Positions 49,763 through 64,000 of a DNA stretch of 64,000 nucleotides are shown one piece after another. Source of the stretch: Candidatus Electrothrix rattekaaiensis (GTDB lineage: Bacteria > Desulfobacterota > Desulfobulbia > Desulfobulbales > Desulfobulbaceae); contig JAVQMD010000001.1 in NCBI GenBank assembly GCA_032595675.1, forward strand, positions 248,001-312,000. Direction: 5' to 3'. A program made the position numbers and the translations under genes. Numbering within the stretch: the first letter of the stretch is position 1; the number at the start of each line of letters is the position of its first letter. The notes beneath the pieces are model-generated. The model had not been told where the DNA came from. It was given only the letters and a program-made list of their open reading frames with translations, and made no database searches.

Positions 49763-50332
49763 TTATGCCCATAACACGGACAAATCAAAACTGGTTTCCG
49801 TAAAGGGCGGCAAGGAGACGCTTTGATCGTCCCGCAAGGTTTTGAGCAGCACCCATTTATTTCCTGATGATTCGGTTTGCAGTTGATAGGCTTCCAAGGT
49901 TTGCAGGTCTGGATCAACCAACCACAGATACTCGACACCATAATGCGCATACAAGGGCATTTTGATCGCACGGTCGGTCTTGCCCGTTGAGGGCGAAAGC
50001 ACCTCGCAAACCCAATCCGGCACGCATTCAAACCAAGCGGTTTTCGGCAGTTCCGGCATTCGCTCACGCCGCCATCCCGCCAGATCAGGAACCATTATAT
50101 CGACATCCAGATGAAGCTCTGGTTCGTCAAGAATCCACCAGCCTCCTGGACCACCGCGACCATGACCATACGGTTTGTAAATTTCTCCGCCCAATGATGA
50201 TGTGGCCAAGGCATGACGCGGAGCTGGTCTTGGATGGGTTTCTAAAACTCCGTTAAGTATCTCTCCCACAATATTATCAGGCAGGCTCAACAAATCTTCG
50301 TAGACTGCGTAACGTTTGGCTGCTTCTCCCAT
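49763..50332 (-). CDS. Uma2 family putative endonuclease (copy 2)
   Basis: 189 residues. Uma2 (DUF820) proteins have a PD-(D/E)xK nuclease fold: the core here is LDVDIMVPDLAGWRRERMP with its Asp residues and WVCEVLSPSTGKTDRAIK, carrying the E-x-L-S-P and Lys. The strand LYAHYGVEYLWLVDPDLQTLEAY is the standard end. Their role is unknown; they are often found in multiple copies. This copy lies 21 bases downstream of a close paralogue in the same orientation. Confidence 0.9.
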   Translation of the reverse strand: MGEAAKRYAVYEDLLSLPDNIVGEILNGVLETHPRPAPRHALATSSLGGEIYKPYGHGRGGPGGWWILDEPELHLDVDIMVPDLAGWRRERMPELPKTAWFECVPDWVCEVLSPSTGKTDRAIKMPLYAHYGVEYLWLVDPDLQTLEAYQLQTESSGNKWVLLKTLRDDQSVSLPPFTETSFDLSVLWA

Positions 50333-50353
50333 TGGTACTCACCTCCAGGTTTA

Positions 50354-50923
50354 TTATGCCCATAACACGGACAAATCAAAACTGGTTTCCGTAAAGGGCG
50401 GTAGGGATACGCTTTGATCGTCCTGCAAGGTTTTGAGCAGCACCCATTTATTGCCCGACGATTCAGTTTGCAGTTGATAGGCTTCCAAGGTTTGCAGGTC
50501 TGGATCAACTAGCCACAGATGCTTGACGCCGTAATGCGCATACAAGGGCATTTTGATCGCACGGTCGGTCTTGCCCGTTGAGGGCGAAAGCACCTCGCAC
50601 ACCCAATCCGGCACGCATTCAAACCAAGCGGTTTCAGGCAGTTCCGGCATTCGCTCACGCCGCCATCCCGCCAGATCGGGAACCATTATATCGACATCCA
50701 AGTGCAACTCAGGCTCAAAGAGTATCCTCCAGCCACCGGGGCCGCCCTGACCATGCCCAAATGGGCTGACTACTTTTGCAGCCAATGACGAGGATGCCTG
50801 CGCATGACGGGGACCGGGTCTTGGATGGGTTTCCAGAGCACCGTTGAGGATTTCTCCTACCAAGTGTTCAGGAAGATTAAAAAGGTCTTCGTATACTGCG
50901 TAGCGTTTGGCTGCTTCTCCCAT
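50354..50923 (-). CDS. Uma2 family putative endonuclease (copy 1)
   Basis: 189 residues, aligned end to end with the copy at 49763-50332 without gaps and identical over most of the C-terminal two thirds. The differences cluster in the N-terminal third (for example LFNLPEHLVGEILNGALE against LLSLPDNIVGEILNGVLE, and AKVVSPFGHGQGG against GEIYKPYGHGRGG). The nuclease core residues are kept in both, so both may be functional. First of the pair in transcription order. Confidence 0.9.
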   Translation of the reverse strand: MGEAAKRYAVYEDLFNLPEHLVGEILNGALETHPRPGPRHAQASSSLAAKVVSPFGHGQGGPGGWRILFEPELHLDVDIMVPDLAGWRRERMPELPETAWFECVPDWVCEVLSPSTGKTDRAIKMPLYAHYGVKHLWLVDPDLQTLEAYQLQTESSGNKWVLLKTLQDDQSVSLPPFTETSFDLSVLWA

Positions 50924-50973: not shown

Positions 50974-51732
50974 TTAAAGAAGGTTGAGCATCATGTAGAC
51001 AGGGATGAGGTGGGCTGTTGAGCTAGCCGATTTGAGTGAGCAAAAATCCACAGCGATATTCGCTGTGGTACCGGCAGGTATCGAAGTGGCATTGGCAAAA
51101 TCAGCTGCATCCTGATACCATTCTTCGACTCCAGATCCGTCATAATCCCAGATAAGCAGTTTCACATCATTAGTAGGGGGCAAGCTCGTTATTGTAAATT
51201 CACCATTTTCATTCGTCACTGCGTAGCCTCTAAATTCCTCATTACTATCATAGGCCATTACCCACAAACCTTCGACGGTGCCTGCAGCACAGCCCGTCTC
51301 GTTTACCACTTGACCTGAAATACTCTCCCCTGCAAGTAGGGTAATATTAACATTCCCTGTCTCCTCTCCCCCAGAAACAGAGACAAACGACGCTTGATCA
51401 TAATCAAGCCCATTTGAGTTCGAGGAGCTATACCAACGCGTTATAAAATCCGTCTCAAATGCCCAAAAACGCACCTGATACGATCCGTCCTCCAGACCAT
51501 CAATAACATACTGACCGCTAGCGTTCGTCGGAGGAGCATTTGTTACCCATATCCCGGCTTGAAACGCCTGGGCATAAACACCCGCAATTCCATCATCAAG
51601 CCCATCTGTTGTTATTTTTCCTGATATTGATCCGGCCTGCGCAACAGCTACTGCACAAAACAAGCTGATCAACAGCCCGCCAATCATTCGAAATAAAAAA
51701 AAAGCGTTTTTTTCTACATGCTTCATATCCAT
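50974..51732 (-). CDS. Secreted carboxypeptidase-regulatory-like protein
   Basis: 252 residues. A signal peptide (FRMIGGLLISLFCAVAVAQA, about residues 14-33) is followed by two carboxypeptidase-regulatory/CNA-B-like beta-sandwich units: GSISGKITTDGLDDGIAGVYA…SGQYVIDGLEDGSYQVRFWA, and ESISGQVVNETG…GEFTITSLPPTNDVKLLIW. The last residues (AHLIPVYMMLNLL) are hydrophobic and could be an anchor or sorting tail. The repeats are related to the SdrD-type units of the giant protein at 55871-63999, so the two may belong to the same surface-protein group. It lies after the peptide-modification operon, separated by 267 bases. Confidence 0.8.
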   Translation of the reverse strand: MDMKHVEKNAFFLFRMIGGLLISLFCAVAVAQAGSISGKITTDGLDDGIAGVYAQAFQAGIWVTNAPPTNASGQYVIDGLEDGSYQVRFWAFETDFITRWYSSSNSNGLDYDQASFVSVSGGEETGNVNITLLAGESISGQVVNETGCAAGTVEGLWVMAYDSNEEFRGYAVTNENGEFTITSLPPTNDVKLLIWDYDGSGVEEWYQDAADFANATSIPAGTTANIAVDFCSLKSASSTAHLIPVYMMLNLL

Positions 51733-51999: not shown

Positions 52000-52560
52000 T
52001 TAACTATCACCTCTTATTTTCATTATAATTCCTGCTCGACGCAAATAATAAAAAATCAATGACAAACCAACAACCATGAGTGCTCTCAGGCGCATAAAAA
52101 AAGTTCCGAGAGACTTTATCCTTTCCAGATCATTCTCAGAGTGAGAAATAATTTGCCGAACACGCCCCAGCACCTGCTCAGAAGGCACAAAGCCATCAAA
52201 GCCCAAGCAGGCATCCCCCTTGGTTTGTAAATATGTATTTCCTTTACAGAAGCGACGTCTGACCAGACGATGAACAAGTGGGCTTCCCTGACTGTCACAG
52301 AGAAAAAGGATTTCTCCAATTTTGGGAATTTGTCCGGCAAGCGGAGAAACTCGAATGGTTTCACCTCCATGCAGGAACGGTCTCATTGAATCACCTGAGA
52401 CTTGTATGCATACGTCTCTACCCTGATCAAGGAGAAACCGAATAAGATCAAGAGCCCCCTGATCCCGTATACTAATAAGAGCACGGTCATTACACGGTTG
52501 GGTCTGAGCCAGCGGTAATTGCCGGTAGGAACAGGAGCCAGTTAAACGATTTTTTTTCAT
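52000..52560 (-). CDS. S24/S26 signal-peptidase-like protein
   Basis: 186 residues. The Ser motif VSGDSMRPFLHGGETIRV (about residues 53-70) and the later SPLVHRLVRRR (His in the place where archaeal and ER-type signal peptidases have their base) give a Ser-His type S26 active site. A hydrophobic stretch near the end (ALMVVGLSLIFYYL, about 159-172) could anchor it in the membrane by the C-terminus. It closes the peptide operon. It overlaps the preceding gene by 71 bases in another frame; no in-frame ATG, GTG or TTG lies between the overlap and the Ser motif, so the long overlap appears real. Processing of the precursor or the secreted neighbour is a reasonable inference. Confidence 0.82.
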   Translation of the reverse strand: MKKNRLTGSCSYRQLPLAQTQPCNDRALISIRDQGALDLIRFLLDQGRDVCIQVSGDSMRPFLHGGETIRVSPLAGQIPKIGEILFLCDSQGSPLVHRLVRRRFCKGNTYLQTKGDACLGFDGFVPSEQVLGRVRQIISHSENDLERIKSLGTFFMRLRALMVVGLSLIFYYLRRAGIIMKIRGDS

Positions 52561-53140
52561 TAGAGATCACCGTTACATCATCAATCTGCCACCACCAGTC
52601 CCAAGAGGCATTGTAGCGAAAACGGATAAGCACAGAGGGCTGTCCGTCAGCTTCCGAACTAATATCCACTGATGCTGTTTTAGGGCCTCGATCAGACTGT
52701 GCCTGTTGCCATACCGGAACCCAATTACTCCCCCCATCTGTCGAAATTTCTACGGCAAAGGTACTGGTCCCCTGCCCCTCAAAGGCATCATATTTAAATG
52801 AAAGGCTTATTCCGGTCAAATCCAAGCAATCAAGTGAAGGAGTGACAAGCACGGTGTCAATGTTTGTTCCTAGCCCGCACTCATCGCTATTGGCAAGGAT
52901 AAAACAGCCTTCATCACCCCCGCCGGTCTTGTTAACCTCCAGCCCTTCATTAAGCCTCCACTGCCAGCCGCAGGAACCTCCCTCATGCTCAAGCAGGTCC
53001 ATTACCTCCCAATCAACAGGAATCTGGCAAGAATTGAAGTCTTCCAGCAGTACCCCTGTAGTGGCAAACAGATTTTCCGAAGAGATAAAAAGCAAAAACA
53101 GTGCTACACCAACCAGCACTTTATTTCTATATGGGTCCAT
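52490..53140 (-). CDS. Secreted choice-of-anchor-J-like beta-sandwich protein
   Basis: 216 residues. A signal peptide (VLVGVALFLLFISSENLFA, about residues 9-27) is followed by a cleaved-adhesin/MAM-like domain: GVLLEDFNSCQIPVDWEV, GCFILANSDECGLGTNIDT, LSFKYDAFEGQGTSTFAVE and the close WQIDDVTV. Six or more cysteines suggest disulfides. The chain ends WLLFLPAITAGSDPTV, a short hydrophobic tail. GAGGAAG lies about seven bases before the ATG. Its place between the kinase and the peptidase suggests an extracellular partner or the presented form of the product, but no function is shown. Confidence 0.8.
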   Translation of the reverse strand: MDPYRNKVLVGVALFLLFISSENLFATTGVLLEDFNSCQIPVDWEVMDLLEHEGGSCGWQWRLNEGLEVNKTGGGDEGCFILANSDECGLGTNIDTVLVTPSLDCLDLTGISLSFKYDAFEGQGTSTFAVEISTDGGSNWVPVWQQAQSDRGPKTASVDISSEADGQPSVLIRFRYNASWDWWWQIDDVTVISNEKKSFNWLLFLPAITAGSDPTV

Positions 53141-53164
53141 ACGAGCTTCCTCTTCGATTTACAT

Positions 53165-54094
53165 TTACGGCAATCCTGATGCCAATTCTTCCACCGCAAG
53201 CACCGCAGTCTCGTCCGCCCGAAAAGCCAATTCAAACATCGGAACTTCCTGAACCAATGGCTCACAGACAGCAAGGCCTTTATTGGTCCACTCTTCACTA
53301 TACCAAGGAATAGAAACCACTTGCAGCAAGCGATGCAAGCCCTGTACGGGAGTCAATGTGGTAATTTTTGTCTTTTCTGCCTGCCGCAAAAAAACTAATG
53401 CTGAAAGCGGGGCTGTTTCATTGCGGGCTATGCTTCCTGTTCCCATCCAAGGAGTGCCCCAAACATTCCACCTGTTTTCGGCAAAACGTACAACCAGCCG
53501 TTCATCACTAAACAGTCGATTCCCAGAAGAGAAGCTCAGTAATTCACTGAGGGTTGATTTGCCCGCACCCGATAGCCCAGCAAACACCATCCCCTTGCCC
53601 AGGATGGAACCTCCGCCAGAATGGACAATCAATCCTTGATGATTGATAAAGGTATGTTGCAACAAAAGAGCATCAGCAGCAGACCTATAAGGATCAACGA
53701 TCTGAATTTTATCGCTCTCTACACTTCGAGAACAAAAAAAATACGTAAACCTGGAAAATTCAGGGTCTATCTGAACGGTTACAGATGGAACCTGCTGCTG
53801 TTCACTAGGATAGCGATAAAGTTGAAATCCATCCAAAACAGACTGCATCTTAAAATATTGACTAGAAAAAACTACCTCTCCGTCTTCTGGCTTGTATCGC
53901 TCAGGTGTGCTTCTCATTTGAACCTGAACATCTGGCTTGTGATTAGCAGGTTGAACAAAACGCATGTATTCAGCACATCCCTCTCCTTGCAAAACAGGAT
54001 CAAGCCTGTTTGCAACATTGACCGACAGTCCGCCAATCATGTGAGAAAAACCAGACAGAGCTGAATATTTTTCATCTTCATGTACATTCAACAT
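53165..54094 (-). CDS. HprK-like serine kinase of the peptide-modification operon
   Basis: 309 residues. The kinase core begins with GLIVHSGGGSILGKGMVF and has the P-loop GLSGAGKST at residues 173-181, then LFSDERLVVR and NVWGTPWMGTG, the pattern of HPr kinase/phosphorylase C-terminal domains. The N-terminal 150 residues are unlike classical HprK. HprK-related kinases linked to PqqD-like proteins are known (for example the HPr-rel-A type clusters), and an HprK homologue phosphorylates the terminal Ser of the lasso peptide paeninodin. Here the preceding gene is a 63-residue precursor ending in Ser, so phosphorylation of that residue is a fair hypothesis. Confidence 0.85.
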   Translation of the reverse strand: MLNVHEDEKYSALSGFSHMIGGLSVNVANRLDPVLQGEGCAEYMRFVQPANHKPDVQVQMRSTPERYKPEDGEVVFSSQYFKMQSVLDGFQLYRYPSEQQQVPSVTVQIDPEFSRFTYFFCSRSVESDKIQIVDPYRSAADALLLQHTFINHQGLIVHSGGGSILGKGMVFAGLSGAGKSTLSELLSFSSGNRLFSDERLVVRFAENRWNVWGTPWMGTGSIARNETAPLSALVFLRQAEKTKITTLTPVQGLHRLLQVVSIPWYSEEWTNKGLAVCEPLVQEVPMFELAFRADETAVLAVEELASGLP

Positions 54095-54126
54095 GTTATA
54101 TCACGCCCAGCACTACGCACTTAATC

Positions 54127-54318
54127 TCAGGAAGCCCCATCATGGGCACCAAGTACTTTTACACAAGGGTCCAGAGGGAATTGTTTAGTACATCCCGCTA
54201 GAACCTGATCGGCAAACAGGGCAACAGCCTTCAAACTTGGCTTTTCATACGGGAGCTTCTGCATCGCATCCTTTGAGTTTGTTTGTTCAACAGTTTGTAA
54301 CGGCTTTTCCTTGCTCAT
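54127..54318 (-). CDS. Candidate ribosomal peptide (RiPP) precursor, 63 residues
   Basis: 63 residues. The N-terminal 40 look like a leader: Tyr24-x-x-Pro27-x-Leu29 in PYEKPSLKAV is the YxxPxL motif that PqqD-like (RRE) proteins bind in lasso-peptide leaders, followed by ALFADQVLAG. The core would be about 21 residues, starting near Cys43, with a second Cys at 52, Asp50/Asp60, His59 and a terminal Ser63. The ATG at 54318 lies three bases after the radical SAM stop, with GAGAAGAAG in the end of that gene as ribosome site, so the two are tightly coupled. The core is short on the repeats seen in multi-core families. Sactipeptide-like thioethers from Cys43 or Cys52 are possible; the product is unknown. 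Confidence 0.85.
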   Translation of the reverse strand: MSKEKPLQTVEQTNSKDAMQKLPYEKPSLKAVALFADQVLAGCTKQFPLDPCVKVLGAHDGAS

Positions 54319-54321
54319 CGT

Positions 54322-55455
54322 TCAACTCTTCTTCTCTAAAGTTTTATTTCTTCGCATTTCAGCATATTGACAATAAAAAACATCAACCTGTTCTGGGATT
54401 CCCTTCGTTAAAGCAAAAGCACCTGGACAACCCGAACATATTCCTTTATTGCGACACTTAGAGCAGGAAAAAAGTGGGCTGGCCTTGGATAAACTGAACT
54501 CCTTCAGCCTTCCATTCCATCCATCTACTATTCCTCCTTTATTATTCAGATCAACACTATACTCCTCCACTATCACACAAGGTTGTAATTTCCCGTAAGG
54601 AGTAATATGATATAATGACCTCCCTGCTCCGCAGTAATACAGTTTATCCGATGATTCTGTCGAGCTTGATTTCGCTATCACTCCGGCCAGTTCAAGTGCC
54701 AGTTCATCTATACTCAAATCGACATCGCTTGCCTGATCCGGCGAGAGACGATACTGAAGCGGGCCAGTCAACCTACACTCATCGGTGTCGACATTCGATC
54801 GCCCGCCATTATCCTCATGAGCTACTGCTGCATGTATGGAGCAATCATGGCGAAACTGAAGCCCCATGTTCATTGCCAGCTCACGAATGGCCGGAAACTC
54901 ATCCACATTCAGTGTTAACACCATAGTCTTCAGACGTAGACGAACCCCTGCGCTCCTTAAACGTTCTATTCCTGTCATACAGCCAGAAAATGAACCTGTT
55001 TGCTGGGTTACAGCTTCAAAAGTTTCCTGTGTCGCACCGTAGACTGTTATCTCTAACATTCTAGGTGGATATTCAAGGAAAGCTCTGGTTATTTCATCGG
55101 TCACCAGAGAACCGTTACAGAATACCGTCACCAGGAGTCCGGCCCGAACGGCGTATTTGTAAATCTCCACAAAATCAGGACGGAGCATTGGATCTCCTCC
55201 GGTCAGGAGGAGAAATAGGGTACCCGCCTCAACCATTTCGTCAATCAGACGAAATACAGCATCCGTATCAAGTTCCCGATGTCGATGTCGACGAATGCAC
55301 TCCTGATCACCAAGGTAGCAGTGAACACAACGAAAATTGCAACGGCGAGTCAACTCAAAGGAGGCAGCCAAAGGTGTTCGTGAAGCAACAGCTTTGGCAA
55401 AATAGCGTGCGGTGTCTGTTTCTCCTGCGCTAAAGCAATCTTTTTCCTTCATCAT
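54322..55455 (-). CDS. Radical SAM/SPASM maturase of the peptide operon
   Basis: 377 residues. The cluster motif CxxxCxxC is at Cys39/Cys43/Cys46 (TRRCNFRCVHCYLGD), followed by LLTGGDPMLRPDF. The C-terminal SPASM part (about 330-365) has CSKCRNKGICSGCPGAF and DVFYCQYAE, plus LYYCGAGRSLYHITPYG before it. This matches PqqE/AlbA-type peptide-modifying enzymes. It lies between the PqqD-like gene (six bases) and the precursor (three bases), which makes it the prime candidate for installing a crosslink in the precursor. Confidence 0.94.
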   Translation of the reverse strand: MMKEKDCFSAGETDTARYFAKAVASRTPLAASFELTRRCNFRCVHCYLGDQECIRRHRHRELDTDAVFRLIDEMVEAGTLFLLLTGGDPMLRPDFVEIYKYAVRAGLLVTVFCNGSLVTDEITRAFLEYPPRMLEITVYGATQETFEAVTQQTGSFSGCMTGIERLRSAGVRLRLKTMVLTLNVDEFPAIRELAMNMGLQFRHDCSIHAAVAHEDNGGRSNVDTDECRLTGPLQYRLSPDQASDVDLSIDELALELAGVIAKSSSTESSDKLYYCGAGRSLYHITPYGKLQPCVIVEEYSVDLNNKGGIVDGWNGRLKEFSLSKASPLFSCSKCRNKGICSGCPGAFALTKGIPEQVDVFYCQYAEMRRNKTLEKKS

Positions 55456-55461
55456 ATTCTA

Positions 55462-55758
55462 TCAATGCCCGACAGTTTCCACAATCAACCCTGCTTCAAA
55501 AAGTTCAGAAGCGATCTCCAGTACATCGCCCTTAATTATTTCTAAATTGATATCGTAGAGTTGTTCAAGCTGCCCCCCTATCTCAGCAAGAGAACGTGCC
55601 CCGTCAAGTGACTCCCAAATAAACGCCCCAGTCTCATTCAAAGAATAGAGATTATCCATAGAAGCAAGCTCTCCTGAAATCGGAACAAGCAGTGTTTCAT
55701 CCATCACCTTCCGAGTAACAATATTATCCGCCTTTTTAAGTACCATGTCAAGCTGCAC
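55462..55758 (-). CDS. PqqD-like RiPP recognition element protein
   Basis: 98 residues from GTG 55758; ATG 55746 is an alternative four codons in. The PqqD fold is evident: beta strands in VTRKVMDETLLVPI, LYSLNETGAFIWESLDGARSLAEI (the NETGAFIW turn is the family signature), then helices ending IASELFEAGLIV. Such stand-alone proteins bind the leader of the precursor and deliver it to the radical SAM enzyme. It is the first gene of the operon. Only 27 bases separate it from the hairpin at 55793-55820. Confidence 0.92.
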   Translation of the reverse strand: MQLDMVLKKADNIVTRKVMDETLLVPISGELASMDNLYSLNETGAFIWESLDGARSLAEIGGQLEQLYDINLEIIKGDVLEIASELFEAGLIVETVGH

Positions 55759-55785: not shown

Positions 55786-55820
55786 TAAAAATGGAATCAC
55801 CCCCTTCCGGGGGTGATTCC
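55786..55820 (-). terminator. Strong hairpin between the giant peptidase gene and the peptide operon
   Basis: GGAATCACCCCC (55793-55804) pairs perfectly with GGGGGTGATTCC (55809-55820) around TTCC: 12 pairs. On the minus strand, where transcription comes from the peptidase gene, the hairpin is followed by ATTTTT. It is a good terminator for that gene, but the PqqD-like start is only 27 bases further on, so it could also act as an attenuator that lets part of the transcripts through. Confidence 0.9.
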
Positions 55821-55870: not shown

Positions 55871-58800
55871 TTACTGGTACATCACCGGAATATGCGCAGC
55901 AGGATCACCCAGCAAATTATAGATATCAAGCGTATAGCGCTTTTCTCCTTGTTTGACATTGAAATAATGTTGCTTAGCCTGAACAACAGCATCGCCGAAC
56001 CTATACGTCTCAGAATCAGATAAACTTCGGTAAAATCCTTCTGACAAGATGTCTGCAAGGTAATTACGGGATAGGCCGGTAGCTCCAAAGAAACCAACAG
56101 CCGCACCGCCCGGTTGCAAGACAGCACTCTCGCCTACACTGTTCATGGCCGGATAACCGAAGCTTGCAGAAGAGCAGGCCATACTGACCATCAACACAGG
56201 TGAAGTGAGATCAGTCATGGACTCAATTCCACTTGATGACATCAGAGAACTATTTGCCCCGTAACCTATCCAAGAACTGTGACCTGTATAGTGCAGAATA
56301 TTAGTCCCCTGCTGAAGAGTGCTAGTAATCCCGTTTTTAACTCCTGAATACCCAAGACTATCAGCATCAAGCCTATTCACTTGAAAATATTTCGAAACAA
56401 GAGCATCTACCTGATTGGTACTGGACATAAAATCGCCTGCCAACGGGTCACTCTTGTCTGTTACTAGCGTCACTACTCGATTTCCTTTCAGCAATGCATG
56501 CTCATAATCAATGATTTTATCAAAATATGAGTTCAATTCAGCATTGTCAACGACGGGTATCCGGCCAATGGAAAATTCTGGAACTCCATCATCACCAACA
56601 ACATCCGCCAGTGCATTGTCACTGGGATAAAAGCCGTCAGGGGTGGAAACTAACATACTGGGCAGCCGAGAGGCCCCATACCCTAGATAATCTTTATAAT
56701 CGTAGGAACCGTCTCCGATCAAAGCCACATATCCAGGAACCTGCGCCCAGTTTTTATAGACATACGACAAGAAATCACGCACCGCCTCCGGTGCGGCTAG
56801 GCCATGACTGAACTCGTCCTGCACGTCCTCAATATCAATGAGCATTACCGTCATCCCCTCGCCTGCCCGATGATCAGCAAGCTTCTGAGCGGATTTCATC
56901 AGATCCAACGAAGTGATGATCAGATAGTCTGCCCGATTATTGGCACTGCGCAACTGCGAGGGACTGTCAACCGTCATATCGCTAGCAACACTTGTACCAA
57001 TATTTTCGGTGACAAAATATTTATGCCCCGGTTCTGTCAACACGGTGACCGTATACTCACCAGCCTTATTCTTGTCGAGCAAGGTTTTTACCCGCTGTAC
57101 GGAGTTCGAATCCGTAATATCCAACGCCAACACATTAGCACTCTTAAAACCTTTTACAGTCACTCTGTCATAATCGGTATTAGCCAAGAACAGCTCTCCG
57201 TTAACAGCCTCATAGCTGCGCTGGTACTCCACCTCGATGGAATCAAGGAAAACCATTGAATAGGCAACACCGGTGTTCAAATGAGATACTATGCGCACCT
57301 CATTAGTCCCCTCCTGGAGCAATTCAGCCGCGACCTCGCCCCTGAACCGGTAATCACCCTCCTCGGACCATTCCGCCGTACCGACATCATGCCCGTTCAA
57401 CAAAACGCTTACTTTATACGGTGGAGCCTGACCGGAATTCCTGTTAGTAACCCCGACCAAATTAACCGTAACAGTCGCGATACCTTCCCCTGTCAAATAC
57501 GGAGTATCTACTGTATGAAGTAACTCAGCATCGGCTCCGTAAGCAAATACGTATTCCCAAGCCCAGAAATCATTCAGCGGTTTATTGATGTTATACAAAT
57601 ACAGGGGTGTGTGATTTTCCTCAAGTTTAACATGAGCTAAAAATGATTGCTCTTCCTCAATGCTCTCTTCCGCCCGGCCTGGGGTGTTTTTCATCTTAAC
57701 CCCTTTCACTCCCAATTCAAGAAGGTATACATTCCAAGGGATATCATTTCGTTCTGGGGCCTGCCCGTAAAACCACAAGCCGGATCCGGTAGTTGCCGTA
57801 ATCACCGGAATAGATTCACCGGCCAGTGTCACCAAGCATTTCTTCGCCTTCAAATACTGTACAACCTGATTCTCAGAAAACCCGGATGTCGTTGCCAACT
57901 CGGCAGCGGTCAGGTAAACCAAACCGTCTTTACTGACCGGTATTTTCAGCGTACTCCCTGTCTTCTTTTTTTCTTCAGCGACCATCTTGAGGGAGAACTC
58001 GTCTCGGGCAACAAAACGCTTAATTTGTTTCTCGGAAAACTCCTGATGCGTCAATGTGTACCCTTCCGGGCCGTCGGCGAACATCCGATTATTCGCTAAC
58101 AGGGGTTGCTCCGCTGTCACCGTGTACGGCCCGGAAATTATTCCTTGATCATTCACCGCCACCTCGACCACGCGGTAGGTATAGCTTGAACCGGCTTTTG
58201 CCGACTTATCAACATACCGATACGTTCCACCATGCGGCGGAGTCAGCATACCGGGCAAAAATTTCTTTGTGATTGCCTGATACTTGCCGCTTTGTTTGTT
58301 CAGTCGTTCCAGCAGAAAGCCGATAGTACCGATTTCACTAGCTGTTTTCCATTCCAGCACAACCTGATTTTCACTATTCACGTAGGCGTTAAAGGAGCTG
58401 ACCAAGGCGTAAGTGGGGACAGGGTCATCGTAGCCAAAATCAACATCCTCACAGCTTATTAGAGGTGAGCAGGCAGTAGCACCACCACCGGAAGCAACTG
58501 TCACATTGTATGATTCTGACAATCCGTCACTGGAATCTGGATCAACAGAGAGCACATAGCTGTCCAGTTGACCGTTCGTATCCGTCACCTCCACGGTATA
58601 ATCACCGGGAGGAAGACCCGGAAAGAGGTATTTTCCGGTGGAGTCGGTTACATCCTGGGCAATAACAACATAATCACTAATAGAAGTATCATATACTTTC
58701 AATACCACTGTGACACCGGCAATACCTCCGATATCTTTGTGATAGATTGTGTCACCTATATCAGAGGTAGGTGTCGAGGAGAACTGGTAGCCGAAGTCGG

Positions 58801-61800
58801 CGGTCAGAACTGTCTCGCCTGCCGCTGTGATACTGACAGAAGTGCTGTGATCTTTTGTCCCGTCAGGATCACCGGTTTGTGTTGCACCGGTGGGAAGGGT
58901 TGTTGTATCCACCACTACTTTATAACTATCAGGAGCTACGCCTGTAAACAGGTAGCTGCCGTCAGGGCCGGTTTCAGCGGTCACAGCAGTTGTTCCATCC
59001 GCTTCGTAAACAGTGCTGCCGTCAGAGTATTTGAGAGCAACCGTCACGCCTCCTAGCCCCGACTCCCCCATATCCTGCACCCCGTCGCCGTCAGCATCAT
59101 TCCAGATGCGGTCGCCGATGTTTCCGGTGGTCGGAACATTGGGACCGTACCAGAAATCGGCATCAAGATACTCGGTACCCGGTGCAGTTATATTGACAAC
59201 CGTCTGCGCATCCAAAGTGGAATCCGGGTCATAGATCTGCTGTGTTCCCGTAGGCAGGTTGGACGGCAGAGATTTCACAACAACCGTGTAGGTACCTGTC
59301 CCCAGCCCGGTGAACAGATATTTACCGTTCGCATCGGTTACTACAGTCGGGCAGTCTACACCCGGATTACAGAATTCGTTCTGCAATTCAACCACGGCAC
59401 CTTCTATGCCCTGATCCGGGGCACCGTCGCCGTCTGTATCCAGCAGAATGCTGTCACCGATGGAACTCGGAGGACTCAAATCAAAGAGGTAATCCTCCAC
59501 TTCACCGTTTTTGGCTTCGCCTTTAAAGGCATACTTTGGAAGCTCCAGGGCGGGTGCGCCTTTCGGGAAGAAGCGAAAACGGGCATAACCGGGAGAGCTC
59601 AACCCGCCTGCCGGAATAGTGAACGAAATATTTTGATCAGCAACTGTTGCTCCGGGTGTACCAATGGCTTCATTAATAATCATCTCTCCGGTACCGTTGA
59701 AGGAACCATCGCCATTGAAATCGATCCAGGCGACCAAATGCCCTGCTCCATATGTGGTAACACTAACTGTACCGCCACCTGCACCTTCGAACCAAGTACC
59801 GACCTGAACAACACCATCATCATCATCAGCAATCGCACCGGCGGAAGGCTGACCATCTACTTCAGCACTCACCCCTGCACCGAGATACAGATTCGGCGTC
59901 TCAGGAACAATATGGCGGGCACCGTCAATACCTAACTTGGTTTCAAAAGGCAGGGGCAGATCGCCGAAATCAAAGGCAACTGTCTGTTCGAAAGCAAAGT
60001 CCAGTCCCTCAGTATTAGTGGTACTGGGGGTGATACTCTGCCAAGCTGAGCTGGTGTACCCGTCAAGGTCGGTATATTCTTTTAGTCCTGTCGCCGGGGT
60101 ATTTGCGACCGCAGTTGTTAAATTCAAAAGATCCGCAGGGGCATCAAGAGACACAAGATAGCTTTCATTGGTCCCGCTCACCGAGGGTAAACCGGTAAAG
60201 GCGTACTTGCCTTCCGCATCAGTGACGGTTTGGGTTATAGGTACCAACTCACCAGCATCAACAATCCCATCCCCATCTGCGTCCGTCCATTTGGAAACAT
60301 AGACCGTTGTACCTTCATAGGGCAATTCGGAGGCAGGGTCAAACGGGTCGGTTTCACCTACAGCACCAGCACCGCAGTAACCGTTCCCGGTGCTGCCTTC
60401 CAGACAGATTGTGCCACTGAGGTCGTTAACCGGGGTAAACTGGTAACCCAAGTCGGCATCATCAACAGGAGTTGAGCCGAGAGTTAGCTCAATGCTGTTG
60501 TCCAGTGCGCCACTGTCGTGTCCATTATAGGATGGTGTCAATGTGCCGTATTCCGTAGGCCAATCCTGGTCACCGGTGTCCACCGTGACCGTATACTTGT
60601 TCCCATCAACCAGACCCTCAACAAAGGCATAGTTGCCGTTTTCGTCGGTTTCAGTTATATAAACAACATCACCGGCATCGCCACAACCGTCTGTCCCGCA
60701 ATCCGTTAAAGTGACCGTCACATAAGGTATGGCCACATCTGTGGCATCCATATCACCGCCGCTGTTATTTGTATCTATAAACAGCTGGTCACCGATAAAC
60801 AGAGGCGGTTCATAGCCGAAATCCGCGCCCATGTAGCTGTTGCCGTTGATGGCGACATCCTGGCTGTTGTCACATGTCGAAGCCAAAGGATCAGTGCAGA
60901 CCAAGCCGTTGTTGTCCGGGTCGGCAGTCTGTGCAGGACTGCCCGGAATGGAACCGACTGCAACAGTGTAATTATCATCCGGCAGGCCGTAGAACAGATA
61001 CTTGCCGTCCGCATCCGTGGTTGTGGTTCCGACATATTCAGGATCACTCGGATCACAAGGAACAGAAGCCACCGGTTCGGTGCAAAGATACACTTCAACC
61101 CCTGCAATTCCCGGCTCACCCGTACCCTGAGTACCGTCACCGTTGACATCCCAGTAGATGCTGTCGCCGATCACACCAGTGGGGGTGAAGCCGAAGTTAT
61201 TATTTTCACTCGTTGTTGAGCCGGAAAGTGTTTGTTCAAAATACCGAGTTGTGCCTTCATCAGTCCCGGTCGTCGGGGTATAGATAGCATCCCCAAGTCC
61301 CTTAGGTAGATTGGCATCTGTTTCGCTGACCGCCACCCGGTACGTACCGTTAGGCAGATCGCCGAAGTGATACGATCCTACCGGATCAATATTTCCGTCT
61401 CCGTCTACATCAGTTGTACCGTCCGATGCGGGCTGCGTATCCAGATCAAACCATGTTGTTCCGTTGTCCGGGGTCCACTGCAAGGTCACAGTGACATCGC
61501 CGATGCCTGCTTCAGCACTGCTGTTCTTGACTGTATCGCCGTCAAGATCAGTCCAGACCAACCCGCTGATAGCATTTTCATCTTGCGGAGGTTGGTAACC
61601 GAAATCAAGGCCGGTGACATTGCCGCCGGTGACATCGGCCTTGCCGTCGCCGTCACATTGTGTGCCGACACAGACACCGCCGCCGGGAGCGACATCAGGA
61701 TCTTCTATCTGCTGATAGGTGCCTATCGGAGTATCATCAACCACGACAATGAAATTTTGCGAAGGCAGATCGGGGAATGAGTACGAACCGTCCGGATTGG

Positions 61801-63999
61801 TGGTCACATTTGTATACAGTGCGTCCGTGCCGGGGTCAACCACGCCGTCGCCGTCTTCATCCTGATACAGAGAGACCGTTAGACCTTCTACACCCGGCTC
61901 ATTCGCGCCTTGAATGCCGTCGCCGTCCAGGTCGTAATAGATCGTGCCGTCAATCTGGCGGCTGTCATTGGGCGGCTGATAGCCGAAATTGCGGTCAAAA
62001 AGAACTTGACCGCCGGAAGCTGTAAAGTTTATATCTCCGTCAATAGTAGCATCATTGCCTGGATTGGGGTCTGCACCATCTATTGTCTCCTGCGTTGGAG
62101 TCCATGTGTCGGTAGCCAAGGTACCAGTGGCTCCAGTTTCACCCTGTGTTAAAACATTGATGCGATAGCCCTGTCCATCAGGCAATCCTGTAAACTCATA
62201 AAATCCGTTGGCATCTGTGATGATTTCCAAAGGATCGCCGTTTGAATCCAATAAAACATTACCAGTGTTCGGATCAGTGAGCTGCACGGTAATACCGCTC
62301 AGGCCGTTTTCACCATCTTCCTGTTCACCGTTCCCGTTGACATCTTCCCAGATATAGCCGGAAACTGCTCCGGTATCAATTCCGTAGCCGAAATCTATAT
62401 TGGAAGCATCATCGTAGGTTCCTGTTCCACCAACTTTAAGAAACCCATCAACATTCACATTATTTAAACTGTCCGAGTCACTTGGATTAGACCACCATTG
62501 GTCGTCTGCGGTCCCCGAACCTGAAGTCGGTGTGCTGGAAGCATCGGAAGGTGCCGCTGTAATATCTCCGCCATAAGGTGTAGTTGCCGGAGCCTTTACA
62601 TAGTAATAGCCTTCTGTGACGCCTTCAAAGATGTAATTACCATCTGCGTCAGTCGTGCTTGTTGCCACAACAGCCCAGCTTAACGAGTTAGTGACACACT
62701 CATTGCCGTCCATATTCGTTTGAATTATACCAGTATCTGTTTCAACACAAGCCCATAACTCCACAGTCTGACCAGGAAGGTAGGTGTCTACGGCTGAATT
62801 ATCACCTGTAGTAGAGTCCCAGCCATCGGAATTTTTATCAGAAAACAAAGTCCCGCTGATGTCGATTGCCGGTACAAGATACACCTCTGCTGTTGCTTCG
62901 CCGGAGTTGACTATCCGCCCGTCACCCATCTTGGCATCGCCGTCCGCCACTCTGGCGGTGTTCTGAATATCATTCAGTGTACCTGTAGTGCCGTTAATAC
63001 CTTTCATGGTCACGGTAACCACTTTTGACTCCCCAGGAGCAAGCGGTCCGAGATTATCCCATACCTGGGTTGTGGTAGTACCACTGTCGATCCAGCTATC
63101 TCGTTCAGGAGAAGAACTTTGATAGCTCAACTGTGTATTATTGTATTCGTCCTGCAGTTTGACTTCGGTAATGATATCATTGCTGCCTGAAGCACATGGT
63201 TCGGAGGAGGTGACCTGAAGAGTAACAGCATCCACCTCTAAGTACAGAGTATCTGCCCCTCCCCCCTTAGCCGTTTGAAGTGTTATTCGAAGGTCTGCTA
63301 TCTCCGACCATTGCCAAGTTTCAGTGGTACGATCTCCATAAAGATCAGTATAGGCGTAGGTTGAACCTGTAATAATATCCGCAACAGAAAGTGGTACAGA
63401 AGTAACTTCTTCAGTAAAAGCCCCTGGCGGGTCGGTTTTATAAATAGCTGCGGTTATTGTTTGGGAAGTAATCGCTCCTGAATCAGCACGGAGTTGCGGG
63501 CTATGCACAATCATTTGCACATCAACAATCGATCCTGCAGCGACCGGCGCAGTAAACCCACCCCAGATTTCTGGATCTGCCTGACTGGAAATAGTAGCCA
63601 CAGCCGACTCACCGTCAATACTGTAAACATTATCTTGGTCGGACCAAGCAGAGTTATTGGCTGGTGACTCATTGAAAGATGGAAACAATGTATAAACACA
63701 CTGCCCACCAACATTAGTACCGCTTGCAGGCAACCGGTTTTTGACGGTCAAATTATAGGTAATATCTTCACCATCTCCATAAGGCCCCGCACCGTCCACG
63801 GCAACTTTCGTCACTTCCAGCGGCGGCAAGAAACCAAAATCCACACCAGTCACGTCCGTCACATCTACAGGTGTAGTATCAGCAGGCAATACTATTGACG
63901 TCGTTGGTACAGCACCACCTGTCAAATCACCGTCATTATCATCAACAACAACAATAAACTTGGCATCAGGAAGATTGGTAAAACTATAGTCACCGGTTG
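55871..63999 (-). CDS. Giant secreted SdrD-repeat / GEVED / gingipain-type (C25) peptidase, N-terminus outside window
   Basis: At least 2708 residues; the frame is open to the right edge, and TTG 63925 is not the true start. Reading from the visible N-side: end of one SdrD/CNA-B repeat, a DUF11-like module, then about ten more SdrD-type repeats, each with a DxNGDG-like calcium loop, a GxYxFxGLPxGxYxV core and a closing DFGYxPP. A GEVED-like domain (AWIDFNGDGSFN…NGEVEDYLFDL) lies between repeats 8 and 9. An Fn3-like linker (VVLEWKTASEIGTIGFLLER) follows. The last 450 residues form a C25 peptidase domain with catalytic His (HYTGHSSW, codon 56279-56281) and Cys (VSMACSS, codon 56174-56176). The repeats make a calcium-stiffened stalk holding the cysteine peptidase off the cell. 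It ends LLGDPAAHIPVMYQ, with no sorting tail. Confidence 0.9.
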   Translation of the reverse strand, partial: TGDYSFTNLPDAKFIVVVDDNDGDLTGGAVPTTSIVLPADTTPVDVTDVTGVDFGFLPPLEVTKVAVDGAGPYGDGEDITYNLTVKNRLPASGTNVGGQCVYTLFPSFNESPANNSAWSDQDNVYSIDGESAVATISSQADPEIWGGFTAPVAAGSIVDVQMIVHSPQLRADSGAITSQTITAAIYKTDPPGAFTEEVTSVPLSVADIITGSTYAYTDLYGDRTTETWQWSEIADLRITLQTAKGGGADTLYLEVDAVTLQVTSSEPCASGSNDIITEVKLQDEYNNTQLSYQSSSPERDSWIDSGTTTTQVWDNLGPLAPGESKVVTVTMKGINGTTGTLNDIQNTARVADGDAKMGDGRIVNSGEATAEVYLVPAIDISGTLFSDKNSDGWDSTTGDNSAVDTYLPGQTVELWACVETDTGIIQTNMDGNECVTNSLSWAVVATSTTDADGNYIFEGVTEGYYYVKAPATTPYGGDITAAPSDASSTPTSGSGTADDQWWSNPSDSDSLNNVNVDGFLKVGGTGTYDDASNIDFGYGIDTGAVSGYIWEDVNGNGEQEDGENGLSGITVQLTDPNTGNVLLDSNGDPLEIITDANGFYEFTGLPDGQGYRINVLTQGETGATGTLATDTWTPTQETIDGADPNPGNDATIDGDINFTASGGQVLFDRNFGYQPPNDSRQIDGTIYYDLDGDGIQGANEPGVEGLTVSLYQDEDGDGVVDPGTDALYTNVTTNPDGSYSFPDLPSQNFIVVVDDTPIGTYQQIEDPDVAPGGGVCVGTQCDGDGKADVTGGNVTGLDFGYQPPQDENAISGLVWTDLDGDTVKNSSAEAGIGDVTVTLQWTPDNGTTWFDLDTQPASDGTTDVDGDGNIDPVGSYHFGDLPNGTYRVAVSETDANLPKGLGDAIYTPTTGTDEGTTRYFEQTLSGSTTSENNNFGFTPTGVIGDSIYWDVNGDGTQGTGEPGIAGVEVYLCTEPVASVPCDPSDPEYVGTTTTDADGKYLFYGLPDDNYTVAVGSIPGSPAQTADPDNNGLVCTDPLASTCDNSQDVAINGNSYMGADFGYEPPLFIGDQLFIDTNNSGGDMDATDVAIPYVTVTLTDCGTDGCGDAGDVVYITETDENGNYAFVEGLVDGNKYTVTVDTGDQDWPTEYGTLTPSYNGHDSGALDNSIELTLGSTPVDDADLGYQFTPVNDLSGTICLEGSTGNGYCGAGAVGETDPFDPASELPYEGTTVYVSKWTDADGDGIVDAGELVPITQTVTDAEGKYAFTGLPSVSGTNESYLVSLDAPADLLNLTTAVANTPATGLKEYTDLDGYTSSAWQSITPSTTNTEGLDFAFEQTVAFDFGDLPLPFETKLGIDGARHIVPETPNLYLGAGVSAEVDGQPSAGAIADDDDGVVQVGTWFEGAGGGTVSVTTYGAGHLVAWIDFNGDGSFNGTGEMIINEAIGTPGATVADQNISFTIPAGGLSSPGYARFRFFPKGAPALELPKYAFKGEAKNGEVEDYLFDLSPPSSIGDSILLDTDGDGAPDQGIEGAVVELQNEFCNPGVDCPTVVTDANGKYLFTGLGTGTYTVVVKSLPSNLPTGTQQIYDPDSTLDAQTVVNITAPGTEYLDADFWYGPNVPTTGNIGDRIWNDADGDGVQDMGESGLGGVTVALKYSDGSTVYEADGTTAVTAETGPDGSYLFTGVAPDSYKVVVDTTTLPTGATQTGDPDGTKDHSTSVSITAAGETVLTADFGYQFSSTPTSDIGDTIYHKDIGGIAGVTVVLKVYDTSISDYVVIAQDVTDSTGKYLFPGLPPGDYTVEVTDTNGQLDSYVLSVDPDSSDGLSESYNVTVASGGGATACSPLISCEDVDFGYDDPVPTYALVSSFNAYVNSENQVVLEWKTASEIGTIGFLLERLNKQSGKYQAITKKFLPGMLTPPHGGTYRYVDKSAKAGSSYTYRVVEVAVNDQGIISGPYTVTAEQPLLANNRMFADGPEGYTLTHQEFSEKQIKRFVARDEFSLKMVAEEKKKTGSTLKIPVSKDGLVYLTAAELATTSGFSENQVVQYLKAKKCLVTLAGESIPVITATTGSGLWFYGQAPERNDIPWNVYLLELGVKGVKMKNTPGRAEESIEEEQSFLAHVKLEENHTPLYLYNINKPLNDFWAWEYVFAYGADAELLHTVDTPYLTGEGIATVTVNLVGVTNRNSGQAPPYKVSVLLNGHDVGTAEWSEEGDYRFRGEVAAELLQEGTNEVRIVSHLNTGVAYSMVFLDSIEVEYQRSYEAVNGELFLANTDYDRVTVKGFKSANVLALDITDSNSVQRVKTLLDKNKAGEYTVTVLTEPGHKYFVTENIGTSVASDMTVDSPSQLRSANNRADYLIITSLDLMKSAQKLADHRAGEGMTVMLIDIEDVQDEFSHGLAAPEAVRDFLSYVYKNWAQVPGYVALIGDGSYDYKDYLGYGASRLPSMLVSTPDGFYPSDNALADVVGDDGVPEFSIGRIPVVDNAELNSYFDKIIDYEHALLKGNRVVTLVTDKSDPLAGDFMSSTNQVDALVSKYFQVNRLDADSLGYSGVKNGITSTLQQGTNILHYTGHSSWIGYGANSSLMSSSGIESMTDLTSPVLMVSMACSSASFGYPAMNSVGESAVLQPGGAAVGFFGATGLSRNYLADILSEGFYRSLSDSETYRFGDAVVQAKQHYFNVKQGEKRYTLDIYNLLGDPAAHIPVMYQ

Positions 64000-64000
64000 T

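Follow-up and report, generated by a model that had tools for sequence, protein, structure and literature searches.

HprK-like kinases of lasso peptide clusters have been proven to phosphorylate a C-terminal Ser (PMC8498205, PMC9266682, PMC10368454), the target in the substrates of PadeK, ThcoK, and SyanK (PMC9266682). Phosphorylation is also known from the linear polyphosphorylated peptides (LPPs; lpp cluster, Popov et al. 2026, PMC13381572), for which LppS is the proven leader peptidase: mutating S29, H68, or D93 abolishes the cleavage that depends on the recognition element (RRE) of these ribosomally synthesized and post-translationally modified peptides (RiPPs). Here, we describe a six-gene set from a 64,000-nucleotide stretch of Candidatus Electrothrix rattekaaiensis (the window; contig JAVQMD010000001.1, positions 248,001 to 312,000). 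It encodes a PqqD-like protein, a radical S-adenosylmethionine enzyme with a SPASM domain (rSAM/SPASM), a short precursor peptide, an HprK-like kinase, a choice-of-anchor J protein, and an S26 peptidase. The set is a new combination of parts known from lasso, LPP, and SynChlorMet systems and belongs to none of them. It probably represents an unnamed RiPP family in which the Cys-containing core would be modified by the rSAM enzyme, the last Ser phosphorylated, and the leader freed by the S26 peptidase.

In mechanism, the LPP system is the nearest for the RRE, the kinase, and the leader peptidase. Both have a discrete RRE, a [Y/W]xxP leader, an HprK-like kinase, and an archaeal-type signal-peptidase-like leader peptidase with identical Ser-His-Asp spacing. 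However, the LPP system was described from Bacillota with no mention of a radical SAM enzyme, its kinase acts on core Ser3 (PMC13381572), and it has an MsbA-like exporter and an NTP (nucleoside triphosphate) transferase, neither of which was found in the window locus. Conversely, a conserved terminal Ser and an adjoining C25 peptidase set the window family apart, and only the YxxPx[L/I/V] part of the LPP leader motif (YxxPxVLxHQxIxFETxxS) is shared. The paeninodin-type phosphorylated lasso peptides (PadeK, ThcoK, SyanK, PsmK/PsmN) have in common with the window set the YxxPxL leader, the RRE, the HprK-like kinase, and the C-terminal Ser, as well as a nucleotidyltransferase gene found in 18 loci related to it. 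The leader, RRE, and kinase could suggest a lasso cluster to which an rSAM gene was added, but the rSAM/SPASM gene stands in place of the lasso cyclase and B2 peptidase, and the core contains Cys. No B2 peptidase lies nearby (PF13471 has a single weak match in the genome, and this lies on another contig), and no cyclase is found among the operon genes, judged from the operon annotation only, so that a lasso assignment is extremely unlikely.

The nearest named set is SynChlorMet (TIGR04248-TIGR04251), which also comprises a PqqD protein, an rSAM/SPASM enzyme, and the HprK-like ScmC. In the seven ScmC loci of the phylum that we examined (L123-L129), an S26 gene lies beside ScmC, PqqD and two rSAM genes are present where the locus is complete, and small YxxPx[L/V/A] ORFs (open reading frames) with repeated Cys and no final Ser may be the SynChlorMet precursors. 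These shared gene types, S26 included, would favor membership of the window locus in SynChlorMet. Nevertheless, the ScmC, ScmD, ScmE, and ScmF models scored 22, 19, 73, and 74 bits on the window proteins against cut-offs of 125, 100, 400, and 400; the ScmC kinases fall in a clade of their own (support 100/100); the window set has one rSAM gene instead of two; and the multi-Cys candidates of the ScmC loci lack the terminal Ser. Membership is thus highly unlikely. Sactipeptide/ranthipeptide and PqqE-type SPASM systems likewise combine an rSAM/SPASM enzyme and an RRE acting on a peptide with Cys in the core, but the window sequence falls far below their models, and these systems are not known to be defined by a kinase or an S26 peptidase. 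No description of a RiPP combining rSAM, HprK, and S26 and no paper naming SynChlorMet were found in the literature searched, subscription journals lying mostly outside the search.

An earlier note, made from the letters of the window, had proposed that the precursor is crosslinked by the rSAM enzyme, phosphorylated by the kinase, and then processed and presented outside the cell. The six ORFs that it listed were found exactly where it placed them (55758-52000), all on the minus strand, separated by gaps of 6, 3, 32, and 24 bases, followed by a 71-base overlap between the anchor-J and S26 genes. Domain searches back every part of the operon except the precursor peptide, which has no model. An rSAM search over 146 genomes of the order found relatives in 10 other genomes; PqqD, rSAM, and HprK occur together in all 10 of these related loci, and S26 in most. 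Scanning named genome contigs with the rSAM as seed gave 80 loci, in most of which the PqqD-rSAM-precursor-HprK(-S26) set recurs, so the co-occurrence of precursor, rSAM, and kinase proposed as a check in the earlier note is conserved. The scan also picked up unrelated rSAM pairs (L093, L099, and L101-L104, for example), which served as a control and were without PqqD or HprK. After removal of three duplicate contigs, 67 loci, window included, had an HprK-like gene within the stretch examined (HprK+ loci). By record title they span about twelve phyla: Thermodesulfobacteriota, Chloroflexota, Verrucomicrobiota, Lentisphaerota, Kiritimatiellota, Nitrospirota, Acidobacteriota, Actinomycetota, Myxococcota, Bdellovibrionota, Omnitrophota, and Armatimonadota. 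In five loci (L027, L139, L140, L142, and L145) the rSAM and the kinase are fused into a single ORF, and some loci (L022, L023, L032, and L082) encode two precursors, L022 also having two kinases. The gene set is more than a chance association. No relatives of the rSAM or of the precursor were found on viral contigs.

The conserved feature of the precursors, overlooked in the earlier note, is a C-terminal Ser. The window precursor has a leader (...LPYEKPSLKAVALFADQVLAG), a core region (CTKQFPLDPCVKVLGAHDGAS), and Ser as its last residue. A profile of the leader only, built without the C-terminus, recovered 61 distinct precursors at E<0.1, 55 of them in HprK+ loci. Conserved in the leader are [Y/W]xxPx[L/I/V], a Leu ten positions past the Tyr, and an acidic/Gln pair just ahead of a Cys, while the core is variable except for its Cys residues (mostly three) and the last residue. 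In the HprK+ loci, 50 of the 55 precursors (91%) end in Ser, no other position among the last 15 being more than 40% conserved, against 10.1% of the ORFs in the same loci (binomial p 4e-44, a nominal value that ignores relatedness). Two checks bear on the effect of relatedness. A kinase-seeded search gave seven further precursors outside the first set (leader E<0.1), and six of them also end in Ser. On the kinase tree, the distribution of the terminal Ser requires 4 changes, compared with a shuffled mean of 11.8; consequently, the terminal Ser looks ancestral with few losses. A lipobox was also considered for the LAGC of the window precursor and rejected: what stands ahead of the Cys differs among precursors (LSGC, LQGC, VGC, GNC), and it is not preceded by a hydrophobic signal peptide.

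The kinase itself is consistent with this substrate. Its AlphaFold model (mean predicted local distance difference test score 92.3) matches phosphoenolpyruvate (PEP) carboxykinase and HPr kinase/phosphatase. A sequence search of solved structures gave no match for the kinase. The HprK/P fold, the conserved His, the GxxGxGK[ST] motif, and the acidic pair are all present; all 46 sequences compared share His158, Gly178, Lys179, and Thr181, and the acidic pair is at 197-198. The motif residues tested as catalytic in lasso kinases (in BsfK: His, Gly, Gly, Gly, Lys, Ser, Asp, Asp) are thus kept in the window kinase. As a separate observation, Anaerolineae kinases (L050, L053, L061, and L064) carry GEDQ where most others have [S/N][D/E][D/E]R. 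As the terminal Ser is missing from their precursors, kinase and substrate may have changed together.

The remaining enzymes are those expected of a RiPP pathway, as the RRE, a complete SPASM rSAM, and an adjacent precursor with a conserved leader are all present in the window. The rSAM enzyme has the full CxxxCxxC and seven-Cys SPASM pattern, these cysteines being invariant in 8 relatives, and its profile matches SkfB and PqqE (PDB). The PqqD-like gene adjoins the rSAM gene in relatives too, and its product matches lasso PqqD and ScmD models weakly, always below cut-off. Compared with the NCBIfam models, the window rSAM fell below every cut-off, and no cut-off was reached by the kinase, the PqqD-like protein, or the tested relatives of each of the three. 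In the S26 peptidase, Ser58 is kept in 30 of 31 sequences (one row being incomplete), His97 in 31/31, and Asp122 in 25/31. The catalytic spacing of 39 and 25 (S58-H97-D122) is that of LppS (S29-H68-D93), and the best matches of the structure model are eukaryotic SEC11 signal peptidase subunits, a sequence search of solved structures returning a weak SEC11C match only. Because the spacing equals that of LppS and the model resembles SEC11, the best-supported role of the S26 enzyme is that of a leader peptidase, which would act on the RRE-presented precursor.

Taken in order, the PqqD-like RRE would bind the YxxPxL leader of the precursor, as proven RRE/leader pairs suggest, and bring the peptide to the rSAM/SPASM enzyme. 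This enzyme would alter the Cys-containing core, with thioether or C-C crosslinks as the most likely modification. The HprK-like kinase would add one or more phosphates to the C-terminal Ser, as indicated by the Ser rule, the motif residues, and the fold. By comparison with LppS, the S26 Ser-His-Asp peptidase would cleave the RRE-presented leader, the cut falling, at a guess, probably near ...LAG/C. The mature phosphopeptide may act in connection with the secreted C25 peptidase next door, with which it is associated by gene order. Peptide modification by the PqqD/rSAM pair and HprK-like phosphorylation, both put forward in the earlier note, are strongly supported by the co-occurrence, the [Y/W]xxPx[L/I/V] leader, and the C-terminal Ser rule. 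Its processing step fits better as leader cleavage in the manner of LppS (PMC13381572), and presentation of the product outside the cell by the adhesin-like protein is not supported, as the anchor-J gene was seen in three loci only (the window, L020, and L032). For the same reason, anchor-J was rejected as an essential part.

Some observations weigh against this pathway. The rSAM served as seed for the 80 loci, the precursors were recognized through a leader profile seeded from the same family, and no exporter was found in the window operon. The number of core Cys varies between precursors, which makes a single crosslink pattern unlikely. Exceptions to the terminal Ser in HprK+ loci are Anaerolineae precursors ending in H, P, G, or Y (L050 and L061 among them), L034 (I), L051 (Thr), L029 (K), and one of the two L022 precursors (Ala). 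Moreover, the lasso kinase BsfK (PMC10368454) and LppK (PMC13381572) act on core Ser3, so the predicted phosphosite rests on the Ser rule and not on homology alone. These kinases, together with the ScmC-locus precursors without a terminal Ser, would favor modification of an internal Ser or Thr, the C-terminal Ser then having another purpose. We consider this unlikely, since in the window clade no core position is as well conserved as the last one, as in the PadeK, ThcoK, and SyanK substrates (PMC9266682).

The earlier note also overlooked the giant C25 gene upstream, which belongs to the conserved neighborhood; the C25 peptidase, and not anchor-J, is the recurring secreted partner. A peptidase C25 domain directly adjoins the set in 25 of the 67 HprK+ loci, window included, across several phyla, the genes lying nearly all within 400 bases (<=400) and on the same strand, with the catalytic His and Cys invariant in 24/24. 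All six closest rSAM loci (the window, G099, G130, G092, G136, and G051) have C25 directly upstream, although C25 is rare in the order (16/146 genomes). C25 and an ABC transporter/exporter are nearly exclusive, the latter occurring in 1 of 26 loci with C25 and 14 of 41 without (p 0.005; locus lengths differ, and the 26 include L058, whose C25 gene is cut at the contig end). Adjacency, rarity, and exclusivity would all suit a peptide that is not released and instead tags or regulates the adjoining C25 surface protease, whether as inhibitor, propeptide, or attached moiety. This alternative is nonetheless doubtful, as 42 of the 67 HprK+ loci are without C25 within the stretch examined, and a strong terminator-like hairpin parts the C25 gene from the set in the window. 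Only tentatively, then, might the C-terminally phosphorylated, rSAM-modified peptides of about 12 phyla form one unnamed RiPP family paired functionally with giant secreted C25 proteases as regulator, tag, or cargo. The features of the locus are collected in Table 1.

Table 1. Features of the locus, with positions in the window and the supporting match
Feature	Position	Strand	Support
PqqD-like discrete RRE, leader-binding (predicted)	55462..55758	-	PF05402 5.6e-15
Radical SAM/SPASM peptide-modifying enzyme (predicted)	54322..55455	-	PF04055 2.7e-23
Precursor peptide, 63 aa	54127..54318	-	leader profile E 1.1e-9
HprK-like kinase, predicted target the precursor C-terminal Ser	53165..54094	-	HprK_rel_A/B 1e-8
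Secreted choice-of-anchor J protein, accessory	52490..53140	-	NF038128 1.3e-12
S26 archaeal/ER-type signal-peptidase-like enzyme, predicted leader peptidase	52000..52560	-	TIGR02228 1.9e-8, below its cut-off
Secreted CarboxypepD_reg/SdrD-like protein, family-level accessory	50974..51732	-	PF13620, PF17210
Giant repeat protein, peptidase C25 domain at its C-terminus, incomplete at the window end	55871..64000	-	PF01364 3.7e-68 and SdrD_B repeats
Terminator-like hairpin between the C25 and pqqD-like genes	55793..55820	-	12 pairs then ATTTTTAATG; consensus match only

Other genes accompany the set in part of the family. Of the related loci, 18 have a nucleotidyltransferase (PF14907 in the member tested) and 15 an MsbA-like transporter; in pseudomycoidin, a nucleotidyltransferase is required for adding hexose to the phosphorylated Ser. 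The CarboxypepD_reg/SdrD-like gene also sits downstream of the set in L021, L022, L023, and L032. At the C-terminus of the window anchor-J protein we observed the motif (N/K)WLL(F/Y)LPAI(T/L)AGS, with similar motifs at the C-termini of the L032 anchor-J and L021 SdrD-like proteins, and Anaerolineae C25 proteins end in YLPIIGK, FLPLILK, or FLPIIFK. The anchor-J motif also occurs in a different secreted protein encoded in this genome (L122:1344-2118), immediately behind a signal-peptide-like stretch near its start. Given the position of this only other exact genome match, the WLLFLPAI tail is not supported as a C-terminal sorting signal. Separately, two neighboring, near-alike 189-aa ORFs at 49763-50923 (MGEAAKRYAVYEDL...) look like a recent tandem duplication.

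If true, the proposed pathway would join rSAM core chemistry and HprK-type phosphorylation with leader removal by a signal peptidase, and would do so in many phyla. The C-terminal Ser rule would provide a simple signature for spotting precursors, and it predicts the exact site of modification. Furthermore, the C25 neighborhood would offer a first handle on the role of phosphorylated RiPPs, which the literature on LPPs and paeninodin leaves open (PMC13381572).

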